Shown one piece after another: positions 17,182 to 51,056 of a stretch of 64,000 nucleotides of DNA. The DNA is taken from the NCBI GenBank assembly GCA_913056395.1, contig CAJXMG010000009.1, positions 28,973 through 92,972 on the forward strand, given 5' to 3'. Every line of letters starts with the position of its first letter. Position 1 is the stretch's first letter. Under the pieces are notes generated by a model, which was given only the letters and a program-made list of their open reading frames with translations, did no database searches and was not told where the DNA came from. This DNA is from an uncultured bacterium. GTDB taxonomy: Bacteria; Planctomycetota; UBA8108; UBA1146. The position numbers were made by a program, and so were the translations under genes.

Positions 17182-17355
17182 GTTCCTGGTGTCCTTTCGG
17201 CAGGTGTCCTTTCGGACCGAGTCAGCATTCGTCCCGAAATGTCTGAAATCGTCTTCGGGGATTGTTCTGATTTTACATCAACTCCCGTGAGGAGGGCGAC
17301 ATCCCGGGTATTTACCTCTAGAATCGAGGTCGTCATGGGATGGGACGGGAGAATC

Positions 17356-18564
17356 ATGAAACTGCTTATCGTTGGCGGCGCAGGATATATCGGCAGTCAC
17401 TGCGTTCTGGAAAGCTTGAGGGCCGGTCACGAGGTGGTGGTTCTCGACGATCTCAGGACCGGGCACCGGGAAGCAATTGGTGATGTGGAATTGGTGGAGG
17501 GCAGTCTTCACCAACCGAATGTTCTCAGGTCCGTCTTTGAGACTCACTCAATTGACGCGGTTTTCAATCTGGCCGCTTCATGCAGTGTTCCCGAGTCGGT
17601 TCACAATCCTGGCCTCTACTATCACAACAATTTGGCTGGAACCCTCAATTTGGCAGCAGCCATGGTTGAGGCGGGGGTGACCCGACTGGTTCATTCTTCG
17701 ACGGCAGCGGTCTACGGGGACCCCGAAGAGGTTCCGATTCCTGAAGACCATCGCATGCAGCCCGTTAACCCCTACGGGGATTCGAAGCGTCTGGTGGAAT
17801 GCACTTTGACCGAAATGTCGAAAGCCCATGATCTGAAGCATGTGTGTCTGCGCTATTTCAATGCCGCTGGAGCCGACGCGTCGGGGTTGATCGGAGAGGA
17901 TCACGCCGATGAAAGTCACCTGATCCCGATCCTTTTGCAGTGTGCTTTGGGGCATCGGTCCCATTTCACTATTTTTGGATCCGATTGGGAGACGAGGGAT
18001 GGAAGTTGCATTCGTGATTTTGTTCATGTGACTGATATCGCCAGAGCTCACTTGATGGCCCTCGAAAAAATCGATGATTTGGCGGGAGAGTCCATCAATC
18101 TGGGATCTTCCCATGGGGCCAGTGTTCGCGAAGTGGTGGAGATCGCCAAAAGAGTGACCGGTTGTGAGTTCGATGTCCGTGAAGAAGGGCGACGTGATGG
18201 CGATCCCGCTGTTCTGCTCGCTTCCAACGAAAAAGCTTCAAAGATGTTGGGCTGGACGCCTGACAACAGTGACCTTGATTTCATTATGGAGACGGCTTGG
18301 CGCTGGCACAGAACCCATCCGAGCGGCTACGGCAGTGACTTCAGGCAGATCCCTGGACAAAAGGGCCGCTTCGGAGAATTGGCTGTGAAATTGGGCTTTG
18401 TCACAGAACAGGATATCGATCGGGTTTTGATCGAACAGGAAAAGATCCGTTCTGAAGGCAGAGGCCACAAAATGATGGGGCTGTGCATGGTTGAGATGGG
18501 TTTGATTTCAACCACGCAGCTGGTAGAGATTCTTCGTCATTATGATGACGGAGAGGAGTCTTGA
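17356..18564 (+). CDS. galE: UDP-glucose 4-epimerase (GalE-type SDR) with C-terminal GspE-N/MshEN-like extension
   Basis: GGAGYIGSHC, YGDSKRLVE, catalytic S/Y region; C-terminal GRFGELAVKLGFVTEQDIDRVLIEQ and MMGLCMVEMGLISTTQLVEILRHY. Confidence 0.88.
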   Translation: MKLLIVGGAGYIGSHCVLESLRAGHEVVVLDDLRTGHREAIGDVELVEGSLHQPNVLRSVFETHSIDAVFNLAASCSVPESVHNPGLYYHNNLAGTLNLAAAMVEAGVTRLVHSSTAAVYGDPEEVPIPEDHRMQPVNPYGDSKRLVECTLTEMSKAHDLKHVCLRYFNAAGADASGLIGEDHADESHLIPILLQCALGHRSHFTIFGSDWETRDGSCIRDFVHVTDIARAHLMALEKIDDLAGESINLGSSHGASVREVVEIAKRVTGCEFDVREEGRRDGDPAVLLASNEKASKMLGWTPDNSDLDFIMETAWRWHRTHPSGYGSDFRQIPGQKGRFGELAVKLGFVTEQDIDRVLIEQEKIRSEGRGHKMMGLCMVEMGLISTTQLVEILRHYDDGEES

Positions 18565-19547
18565 GTTTGATTCATCTCAAGCATGCCGACGGCAAGTTCA
18601 GGGTCTTGAAGATTCTTCTTCTCTGTGGATTTCTGTGCGTGCCAATGGCTTGTTCCTCTGTCAAGGATGACAAGAGGGCACCGATATCGACGGGCTCTGG
18701 TCAGGTCCTCGCCACAGTGGGGCGTGTTCAGATTACTTCCGATGAACTTCAATCGAGAATTCTGGATCGATATTACGGCCCCCGGGCCTTGAATGGACTG
18801 ATCAGGGAGGCCCTGTTTTCCGCAGAAGCTGAGCGATTGGGCATCAGGGTTCGTTCAGAGGAGGTTCTCCTTGAGGTGGATCAACGTCTCAATGCTCTTT
18901 TGGGAGAAGAGAGTACCGATCGCCGTCAGGCGATCCGCGAGTTGAATCGACGGGGCCTCAGTGAATTGGATCTGCGCAAGGAATTGAGCAGTGAAATCGG
19001 TCAGGCATTGTTGATCCAGAAGGTGGTCTCTGCCCGTCGGGAGATTCTCGAAGAGGAAATCCTGGAACTCTGGCGCCAAACCTGGAAAGAACCCCGTCGA
19101 AAAGTGGAGCATATTGCATTTCCCTTTGGGGATCTCCGCGAAGGGGAACTGGATCGACATGGGGAGTGGGTGGCGAGAGTGGGAGAACGGTGGCGCAAGG
19201 GAGCTGCGATGGCTGAGATCCTTGAAAGGCCGCCAGGATTGAGGCCCTCCTTTGAGCCGCGCATCGGCGAATCATGGTTGCGAGAGAGCGATCTTGCGGG
19301 GAGACCTCTCTTCTACCGCCTCTTCGAAATCGGCAGGGGTGGGATCCTCGGTCCTGTGATGGAAGAAAATTTTGGGTGGCATCTCTTTCGTGTGGTGGAA
19401 GAGAAGGCTCCCCGGCCCTACTCTGAGGTTCGAACCCAGTTGGAGTCAGAGTTGAGGAATTCACCTCCGACAGATACTGAAGTTCTGGCCGTGGAGGAGA
19501 GTCTCCGGTTGAGAATCCCGGTAGATGTCCGGGAAGATGCATTCTAG
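18561..19547 (+). CDS. SurA/PpiC-like (parvulin-type) lipoprotein
   Basis: Lipobox MACSS, SurA_N-like helix region, weak rotamase-like region GPVMEENFGWHLFRVVEE. Overlaps galE by 4 bp. Confidence 0.65.
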   Translation: MSLIHLKHADGKFRVLKILLLCGFLCVPMACSSVKDDKRAPISTGSGQVLATVGRVQITSDELQSRILDRYYGPRALNGLIREALFSAEAERLGIRVRSEEVLLEVDQRLNALLGEESTDRRQAIRELNRRGLSELDLRKELSSEIGQALLIQKVVSARREILEEEILELWRQTWKEPRRKVEHIAFPFGDLREGELDRHGEWVARVGERWRKGAAMAEILERPPGLRPSFEPRIGESWLRESDLAGRPLFYRLFEIGRGGILGPVMEENFGWHLFRVVEEKAPRPYSEVRTQLESELRNSPPTDTEVLAVEESLRLRIPVDVREDAF

Positions 19548-19611: not shown

Positions 19612-20481
19612 ATGATTGCTCGTGAGGAAGATGACACTGCTGCAAAAGATACTTCAGCAACACCGGAAGGGGCTGCGCTCGAGGAGTCTGCAGAAGAATT
19701 GACTCCCCTCGAGGGCGAGCAGTTGCGGAGTACCATCGAGGCGATTCTCTTTGCTTCGCCTGAGCCGGTGAGTCGCAGACGCTTGCAAGCGATGTTGAAA
19801 GAGGCTCCCAAAGGAGCCGTGAAGGAAGCTCTCCTGCAAATGGAGGCGGAGTATCTGACTTCTCCAAGAGGATTCCTGCTCCACGAAGATGGTGCGGGGG
19901 TTCGCCTGCTTTCCAAGCCTGACTTCGCCCCTTATGTCGCTCGACTGAGGGGAGAGGGGCGTCGTATCCGATTGAGTGCGGCGGCCTTTGAGACTTTGGC
20001 GGTGATCGCCTATCGCCAGCCGGTCAAAAGATCCGATCTGGAACAGATTCGAGGTGTCTCCTGCGGCCCTATCCTCAAAAATCTGATGGAGTGGAACCTG
20101 ATCCACATCACCGGCCAGGAGGACAGTATCGGCAGGCCCCTGTTGTACGGGACCACATCTGAATTCCTGGAGTTGTTCGGCCTTCAGGCGTTGGGCGAGT
20201 TGCCCGAGCCCAGCAGGCTGAAAGATCAGGGATCCGACAGGGGGCTCGAGATCCTCGATGAGATTATTCGGGGCAAATCGGAAGAAGAACCGGGTGAGCC
20301 TGAATTCGCAGATATCGAGTCGGTGGTGGAGACTCCGGGCGAAACTGCTGAGGTTACCAACGAAACCGAAATCACGCCTAAAGAGCAATCTGGGGCCGAG
20401 AATGACACCCAGAGGTGGGAAGATGACGATTCAGAGGACCTTCTCGGAGATGATTGGGTCGATGAGGACGGGTCTTCTTGA
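19612..20481 (+). CDS. scpB: Segregation and condensation protein B
   Basis: AILFASPEPVSRRRLQAML, LSAAAFETLAVIAYRQPVKRSDLEQIRGV, GRPLLYGTTSEFLELFGL. Confidence 0.93.
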   Translation: MIAREEDDTAAKDTSATPEGAALEESAEELTPLEGEQLRSTIEAILFASPEPVSRRRLQAMLKEAPKGAVKEALLQMEAEYLTSPRGFLLHEDGAGVRLLSKPDFAPYVARLRGEGRRIRLSAAAFETLAVIAYRQPVKRSDLEQIRGVSCGPILKNLMEWNLIHITGQEDSIGRPLLYGTTSEFLELFGLQALGELPEPSRLKDQGSDRGLEILDEIIRGKSEEEPGEPEFADIESVVETPGETAEVTNETEITPKEQSGAENDTQRWEDDDSEDLLGDDWVDEDGSS

Positions 20482-49576: not shown

Positions 49577-49649
49577 ATTGGGATTCCGTGATATCTTTAT
49601 CTGCGGGTGATGTGGCCCGTTGGACCTGTATTTGGAAAGACGGAGGCCG

Positions 49650-51056
49650 ATGTCCCGTTCAGCGACTCCCAGTCGATTCAGCGAGTGGCCATTACCACCT
49701 GATCCTGGCGAATCACGATTGTTGCTGGATCTTTTTCCTGATCCTCTGATTGTTGCGAGAGGCCCTGCACGAAAACTGTTGTCCGTCAATCGAGCCTTCA
49801 TGGAATTGGTCGGTGTCGATGATCACGGCGATTTGCGGGACGTTCCGCTGACTCACTGGATTCACGAAGACGATCGCCATCGACTGTTGTCGTTGGGCGG
49901 GGATGGAGAATCAGATCCGGTCCCCATCATGGTTCAATTGCGTGACGGCGATTCATGGCAGTCGGTGGCACTGATGGGCGGTAGAAGGCTGAGCCCCCGT
50001 GGTGAAGAGCGGTGGGTGTACCGTCTCAAGATTCTTGAGGAGAGTGGAATAGGCCTTGAGAAGCAAATGCGAGAACAACGCAAAAGGGCTTCAGAGGCTG
50101 TGCGAACTTCTTTGCGCATCTTTCATCTGACAGAAAAAATTCGAATGGCTCCACGTCTCTCGGCGATGCTAATCGGCGTCAAGGACGAAGCCGAGTTCTA
50201 TGAAAGAGCGGGGCGATTGCTCAGCTCTGAAGGGCTCGGTTATCGGGGGGTCAGCTTTTGGCAAATGGCTGGTGATCAGAAGGAACTGATCTGGTCTGAA
50301 AATGATTCGTGTGAGATCGACTTGGAAGCGGGTGAATCGACGAGATCCCTTCCCCTGGTTACGGGGAGCGGTCGTGTGGATCGTGTTTTGGAGCTGCAAA
50401 TTGATAATCGGGAGCTCCAATTGTTGCGCGAGGCTCCGCTATTGATGGAGTGGCATGAGGAAGTTCTTGGCACGATTGCTGAGGTGCTTGCCCTGACACT
50501 TGAAAACCTCAAGTTGCATGCTCAACTGGAAGCCCAGGCTCTGCTGGATCCCCTGACTGGGGTTTCCAACCGACTTTATCTGACAGGACAATTGGAAAAG
50601 GAAGTGGTGCGCTCGCGCCGTGATCAACAGCCTTTGGGTCTGCTCTTTACCGATCTGGATGGCTTCAAGCAGGTCAATGATGTCCTCGGTCACATGAAAG
50701 GGGACGAGTTGCTGATTGAGGTCAGCCAGTTCCTCCAGAACCATTTCCGCGAAAGTGATCATTTGTGTCGCTACGGTGGTGACGAGTTCGTCGTGATCAT
50801 GCCAGGTTCCGCCCTCGAAGACATCCGGGCAAAGGCAGAAGACCTGTTGTCAGCATTTCGAGATCACTCATTCTTGAATGGAGAGACGAGTCAGGCGGGG
50901 AAAGTGTCCCTCTCCCTGGGTATCACCCAACTGCGAGATGGAATGAATGGAGCAGAGCTGTTGGATGAAGCAGACAAGGCTCTCTACGAGGCGAAACGCA
51001 AGGGCAAGGACCAGCTGGTGGTCGTCAAACCTCAAGGGTCAAACTCAGAGGATTAG
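49650..51056 (+). CDS. PAS-like sensor diguanylate cyclase (GGDEF)
   Basis: PAS-like N-terminus, DPLTGVSNRLYLTGQLE, LLFTDLDGFKQVND, LCRYGGDEFVVIMP. Confidence 0.92.
   Translation: MSRSATPSRFSEWPLPPDPGESRLLLDLFPDPLIVARGPARKLLSVNRAFMELVGVDDHGDLRDVPLTHWIHEDDRHRLLSLGGDGESDPVPIMVQLRDGDSWQSVALMGGRRLSPRGEERWVYRLKILEESGIGLEKQMREQRKRASEAVRTSLRIFHLTEKIRMAPRLSAMLIGVKDEAEFYERAGRLLSSEGLGYRGVSFWQMAGDQKELIWSENDSCEIDLEAGESTRSLPLVTGSGRVDRVLELQIDNRELQLLREAPLLMEWHEEVLGTIAEVLALTLENLKLHAQLEAQALLDPLTGVSNRLYLTGQLEKEVVRSRRDQQPLGLLFTDLDGFKQVNDVLGHMKGDELLIEVSQFLQNHFRESDHLCRYGGDEFVVIMPGSALEDIRAKAEDLLSAFRDHSFLNGETSQAGKVSLSLGITQLRDGMNGAELLDEADKALYEAKRKGKDQLVVVKPQGSNSED

Follow-up and report, generated by a model that had tools for sequence, protein, structure and literature searches.

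The window analysed here is a stretch of 64,000 nucleotides. An open reading frame at 17356-18564 on its forward strand encodes, by translation, a protein of 402 residues. This frame can be extended upstream to position 17239, but the full-length homologues align only from the ATG at 17356, so we rejected the longer version. The gene, its parts and the two genes that follow it are:

17356..18327, + strand: GalE (UDP-glucose 4-epimerase) domain, residues 1-324 (TIGR01179, Foldseek, catalytic residues), with GGAGYIG at residues 7-13 and the catalytic Y140-G-D-S-K144 (sequence)
18328..18366, + strand: linker, residues 325-337 (pLDDT below 50 at 327-336 in the AlphaFold2 model)
18367..18438, + strand: MshEN-like motif I, RFGELAVKLGFVTEQDIDRVLIEQ, residues 338-361 (NF053729 match, columns, model)
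18439..18471, + strand: spacer EKIRSEGRGHK, 11 residues (column alignment; 5 residues in MshE, PMC5013675)
18472..18543, + strand: MshEN-like motif II, MMGLCMVEMGLISTTQLVEILRHY, residues 373-396 (columns, model)
18544..18564, + strand: C-terminal residues 397-402 and the stop codon (ORF translation)
18561..19547, + strand: SurA_N/PPIC-like gene, with a 4-base overlap (TTGA) at the stop of galE (Pfam SurA_N_3, 31 bits)
19612..20481, + strand: scpB, third in the conserved gene order (Pfam SMC_ScpB, 165 bits; synteny)

By sequence criteria the protein is a GalE, an active-looking UDP-glucose/galactose 4-epimerase, and the complete GalE-type SDR named in the original prediction is therefore present. 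The NCBIfam model TIGR01179 covered residues 2-324 with 400.3 bits (cut-off 262.3), and the catalytic set, formed by the NAD motif GGAGYIG, SST and NPYGDSK (Tyr-x-x-x-Lys), is intact in the family of the window (f1). In Foldseek the domain matched 8wxk (TMt 0.93, 48% identity), the all4713 GalE of Nostoc (PDB 8WXK, TIGR01179), with which it has the whole epimerase domain and the catalytic residues in common. Ordinary bacterial GalE proteins are tail-less and stop at about residue 330, whereas the one in the window carries a tail of 65 residues after a disordered linker of about 10 residues. An AlphaFold2 model of the whole protein, made with a 24-row alignment (pLDDT 85.5), consists of the GalE fold, the disordered stretch 327-336 and four helices, and it suggests that the linker is probably flexible.

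The tail resembles the MshEN domain

The two 24-residue motifs at residues 338-361 and 373-396 have the layout and the sequence given in the original prediction. In the AlphaFold2 model, motif I contains helices at 339-345 and 351-366, and motif II at 374-380 and 386-397; in motif II of the window protein, Met stands in place of Arg and Tyr in place of the last Gln. The tail alone matched the NCBIfam profile NF053729 (c-di-GMP_motif, MshE-related) with an E-value of 1e-9 and 38.1 bits, against a cut-off of 38, and within the whole protein the match scored 30.9 bits, below this cut-off. The tail of one homologue (L032) reached 43.4 bits, above the cut-off, in a match that spans both motifs. When a profile of 24 tails was compared with the PDB, it retrieved PilF (3.6e-10), MshE (6e-5, with both motifs aligned and the sole gap in the spacer) and also PilB. 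Pfam-A gave nothing at the gathering score for the tail of the window protein or for those of four relatives.

A model of the tail by itself (AlphaFold2, pLDDT 85.6) found as its six best Foldseek matches the c-di-GMP complexes of MshE and of the GSPII-B domain of PilF. The comparison with MshEN structures that had been proposed with the original prediction gave a four-helix match to 5htl_B, MshE of Vibrio cholerae, in which 61 columns superposed with an rmsd of 1.0 A (probability 1.00, TMq 0.71); its E-value of just 0.075 is as expected for a domain of 60 residues. Complexes of the PilB N-terminal domain with PilZ were likewise among the matches. According to the model, Foldseek and the profile, the tail is a bundle of four helices, built from two helix-loop-helix motifs of 24 residues each that follow one another in tandem. 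NF053729, the family profile, Foldseek and the column conservation described below rule out a chance resemblance, and the profile, the fold and the conserved columns together support the assignment originally predicted, that the tail is MshEN/GspE-N-like. Three strict features of MshEN are absent from the tail family, namely Arg in both motifs, Gln in both motifs and a 5-residue spacer. For this reason we do not file the tail as a canonical MshEN domain, although it may still work like one.

Pocket positions are the most conserved part of the tail

The MshE study (PMC5013675) assigns a role to several positions of each motif: Arg-1 stacks, Leu-2, Leu-17 and Leu-21 build hydrophobic clusters, Gly-3 makes backbone contacts to guanine, and Gln-24 contacts ribose and phosphate. 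It also describes that MshEN_N binds c-di-GMP by itself, that a larger residue in place of Gly abolishes binding, and that XpsE, a non-binder, is devoid of G11, L29, G40, L54, L58 and Q61. We compared these positions with 59 columns from 46 dereplicated tails. Five columns were invariant (I-3 Gly, I-21 Leu, I-24 Gln, II-3 Gly and II-21 Leu), Gly-3 being present in 46/46 tails in motif I and 45/45 in motif II, and Gln-24 of motif I in 46/46. I-2 Phe (45/46) and II-17 Leu (42/45) were nearly invariant. All seven columns of lowest entropy were among the ten ligand-contact positions of MshE (hypergeometric P 3.5e-7, a value that ignores the relatedness of the tails, and some of these positions also pack the bundle). 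Positions 2, 17 and 21 are hydrophobic in both motifs, the single exception at 17 and 21 being one Arg at I-17.

Position 1 of both motifs and Gln-24 of motif II have diverged. At position 1, the family has Leu, Arg, Pro or Lys in motif I and Leu or Met in motif II, so the first Arg of motif I, originally listed as a kept feature, is not characteristic of it; Gln-24 of motif II is replaced by Tyr, Met, Leu or Ile. The tail thus resembles MshEN_N of MshE in its two motifs, its fold, both Gly-3, the hydrophobic clusters and the terminal Gln of motif I. It differs in sitting at the C-terminus of an epimerase and lacking the MshEN_C subdomain, as well as in the spacer (11 residues vs 5), in the loss of Arg and Gln from motif II and in having Phe, not Leu, at I-2; its ligand is putative.

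A second useful comparison is GSPII-B of Thermus thermophilus PilF (8PDK), the second-best Foldseek group, in which motif II also opens with a hydrophobic residue, Leu, instead of Arg. This domain, which belongs to a pilus ATPase, binds c-di-GMP with a measured KD of 6 nM, and its Arg residues, replaced by Lys or Leu, are dispensable; unlike the tail, it keeps both Gln (Q190 and Q218), and changing one of them raised the KD to 460-950 nM, while changing both abolished binding (PMC11731258). The original prediction had pointed out that the second half of the tail lost R and Q. This loss was confirmed (Met and Tyr), but it weighs less as a weakness, given that single changes are tolerated in PilF GSPII-B. 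On balance, we consider it slightly more likely than not that the tail binds c-di-GMP. We know of no experimentally tested c-di-GMP binder that combines the deviations found here, that is, a motif II without Arg and Gln, Phe at I-2 and a spacer of 11 residues.

The tail is a recurrent partner of envelope sugar enzymes

A search of 294 genomes of the phylum with the tail profile revealed a clear orthologous group, from about 60 bits upwards, that stands above other MshEN-like proteins. In a GTDB-based collection, which was scanned with a narrower alignment (A3) that reaches close relatives only, all titled hits belonged to Planctomycetota, save two titled just "bacterium". The tail was present in every complete copy of the window gene found in family f1, and GalE-tail fusions were also detected in an order-mate (f2), a class-mate (f3) and families f14, f23, f42, f44 and f56. 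Hence the statement in the original prediction that no nucleotide-sugar epimerase was known to carry such a module does not hold within this phylum.

Other arrangements were observed as well. At one locus (L090) a separate tail gene lies 94 bp behind GalE, and in family f23, which also has fusions, the GalE and tail genes overlap in different frames (L109, L110). The fused, adjacent and overlapping forms make up a classical gene-fusion pattern. Stand-alone tail genes were found behind other sugar SDRs (L100, L107, L118) and behind KdsA (L116, L119), and in the complete chromosome of Candidatus Uabimicrobium amorphum (NZ_AP019860) KdsA continues in frame into a tail (L150:3149-4204, the same locus as L121), with KdsA at residues 21-276 (TIGR01362, 356 bits) and the tail at 279-345. 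In two families, a stand-alone tail gene precedes, at a distance of 1-2 genes, a PAS-GGDEF gene whose GGDEF motif is intact (L092, L096, L104, L126). A paralogue of the tail in f1 adjoins LpxK (L129), and some stand-alone copies have no adjacent sugar gene.

The fused state requires five changes on the GalE tree, from which we conclude that there were probably several fusions or reversals of fusion; the resolution of the tree is poor, with 20 of its 42 forks open, and its short branches could hide fissions. A single origin of the fusion is accordingly not supported. Four loci (L109, L110, L144, L145) that had been taken for fusions from ORF length were discarded as such, as GalE and the tail are in different frames, and the apparently large proteins at L091/L142 (892 aa) and L117 (1223 aa) are mostly read-through of the upstream ORF in high-G+C DNA. 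As a separate observation made by eye, in family f36 and in one f50 genome (L094) stand-alone tails occur near prfA-like and/or secA-like genes and away from sugar genes (L094, L097, L099, L105).

The neighbourhood is conserved and the tail outlasts the epimerase active site

The order galE-tail, SurA/PPIC-like gene, scpB is common to f1, f2 and f3, which makes this linkage class-wide, and across several families a SurA/PPIC-like gene also follows the tail directly, at four further loci (L093, L100, L102 and L103; L093 and L102 by eye only). This recurrent neighbour suggests a functional tie of the tail to envelope biogenesis. In the f2 orthologue (L019; the pseudo-epimerase loci of this family are L019/L131), the catalytic segment reads DPLGKAK, with loss of the Tyr, and in the f3 orthologues (L050 and L051) it reads CLRGDLD, with loss of both Tyr and Lys; in all of them the tail and the neighbourhood are kept. 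Judged by these residues, the syntenic orthologues are apparent pseudo-epimerases in two sister lineages. No second GalE above the cut-off was found in the three incomplete f2 and f3 genomes concerned (L019, L050, L051). The retention of the tail where the catalytic residues have been lost suggests that its role is independent of epimerisation.

GGDEF genes do not discriminate between relatives with and without the tail

The original prediction had linked the tail to a complete GGDEF cyclase encoded elsewhere in the window:

49620..51056, + strand: diguanylate cyclase candidate with an intact GGDEF motif (144.6 bits)

The GGDEF protein is indeed intact, but its value as a link to the tail did not stand. 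Relatives with the tail (46/46) and without it (20/20) all have GGDEF genes; their presence does not discriminate between the two groups and, beyond making the c-di-GMP idea possible, speaks neither for nor against it, and we rejected the window gene as evidence for the function of the tail. The window genome encodes two GGDEF genes, one of them inside the window, and one PilZ protein. No EAL domain was found in this genome, and c-di-GMP may be broken down by an HD-GYP protein or another enzyme.

A proposed receptor module for envelope sugar supply

Slightly ahead of an even chance, in our judgement, is that the tail is a divergent receptor or adaptor module of the MshEN_N type that switches or localises envelope-sugar enzymes according to ligand occupancy. 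This reading draws on observed or computed properties (the fusion, homology and fold, the recurrent company of sugar-enzyme genes, a conservation that singles out the pocket, and tails that persist without an epimerase active site), to which it adds, conditionally, a ligand, a direction of regulation and an effect on the enzyme. The stand-alone tail genes shortly before PAS-GGDEF genes, and the binding of c-di-GMP by NfrB and by MshEN_N alone, also speak for it. Against it stand the deviations in motif II, at I-2 and in the spacer, the score of the whole protein below the NF053729 cut-off, the modest Foldseek E-value, the GGDEF genes that do not discriminate, and stand-alone copies next to genes that have nothing to do with sugars. 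The four-helix module would be a mobile plug-in of Planctomycetota, made as a small separate protein or fused to GalE or KdsA. It would most likely still hold a pocket of the c-di-GMP type, built from two glycine-anchored motifs, the leucine triads and one conserved Gln. Occupancy of this pocket would switch or localise the attached enzyme, and by modulating or placing enzymes, whether attached or in trans, the module would tune the supply of UDP-galactose (and KDO) for envelope glycans.

A docking role is unlikely, though worth serious consideration. The tail would then be a protein-protein module of MshEN/GspE-N fold that has lost nucleotide binding and anchors envelope-sugar enzymes on one shared partner, such as the SurA-like protein encoded beside it, some membrane complex or a further protein with MshEN. 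The persistence of the tail after the loss of epimerase catalysis would fit such a role, as would the recurrent SurA/PPIC-like neighbour, the PilB/PilZ complexes among the Foldseek matches, and a motif II without Gln and Arg in a module whose surface residues H371-K372 and E380 are well conserved; moreover, domains of the XpsE/GspE type retain the fold without binding c-di-GMP (PMC5013675). However, the most conserved columns are those of the pocket and not of the surface, and they are exactly the positions that XpsE lost. We regard it as improbable that the pocket instead holds another ligand, for which a different cyclic dinucleotide would be one candidate and a nucleotide sugar (or its product), acting as a feedback signal, would be another. 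Its altered features (Phe at I-2, a hydrophobic II-24, the longer spacer) in an otherwise conserved pocket, and the repeated attachment of the module to nucleotide-sugar and KDO enzymes, are consistent with this; yet in the elements that bind guanine, namely the two Gly-3 and the leucine triads, the tail does not depart at all from c-di-GMP binders, and MshE was reported to be specific for c-di-GMP over c-di-AMP (PMC5013675).

GalE is normally dimeric and C-terminal extensions are common among proteins, two facts that would suit an inert extension serving oligomerisation or solubility, with no regulatory role. To this we give very little credence, in view of the versions encoded by separate genes, the KdsA fusion and the retention of invariant pocket residues in pseudo-epimerases. 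Returning to the receptor reading, we put forward, tentatively and with somewhat less than even confidence, a broader proposal in two joined parts: that Planctomycetota equip envelope-sugar enzymes (GalE, KdsA and probably a UDP-sugar SDR) with a small c-di-GMP receptor derived from MshEN_N, which serves either as a subunit that can be exchanged or as a fused tail, and that the GalE of some fusions has, in certain lineages, turned into a catalytically dead sensor that binds UDP-sugars and has kept the receptor.

A functional parallel is NfrB of E. coli, a GT2 glycosyltransferase that also carries a C-terminal module of the MshEN type on a surface-polysaccharide enzyme and for which c-di-GMP binding was shown (PMC8669469, PMC8669472). 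Unlike the nucleotide-sugar epimerase and the KDO synthase that carry the tail, it is a glycosyltransferase of the membrane, and its MshEN is described as fully conserved. According to PMC5013675, MshEN domains occur on ATPases, glycosyltransferases and signalling proteins. Our literature search, whose coverage stopped short of the supplementary architecture table of that paper, returned neither an epimerase nor a KdsA fused to a module of the MshEN type, and no link of MshEN to signalling in Planctomycetota; the tail would on this basis be a new subfamily with new partners. The recurrence of the module beside, or fused to, envelope sugar enzymes suggests a plug-in receptor through which a second messenger could control how much sugar the envelope receives. 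Known targets of c-di-GMP are glycosyltransferases that polymerise and the motors of secretion. If confirmed, a receptor on soluble precursor enzymes would move this control upstream, to the supply of nucleotide sugars and KDO, and would open second-messenger signalling in Planctomycetota to experimental test, also in Ca. Uabimicrobium amorphum with its phagocytosis-like behaviour.

Other MshEN-like genes in the window genome

Three small stand-alone MshEN-like proteins are encoded in the window genome, all on contig C1: one downstream of a HemW-like gene (L002:1249-1794, by eye), one behind an FtsQ/DivIB-like gene (L003:1438-1743, by eye) and one between an ADP-ribosylglycohydrolase-like gene and lpxK (L004:1396-1716). 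Downstream of the second of these genes, at L003:1720-2616, we observed long low-complexity tandem-repeat ORFs in several frames, with units of about 15 bases of the QQSKP/CCGLL type.
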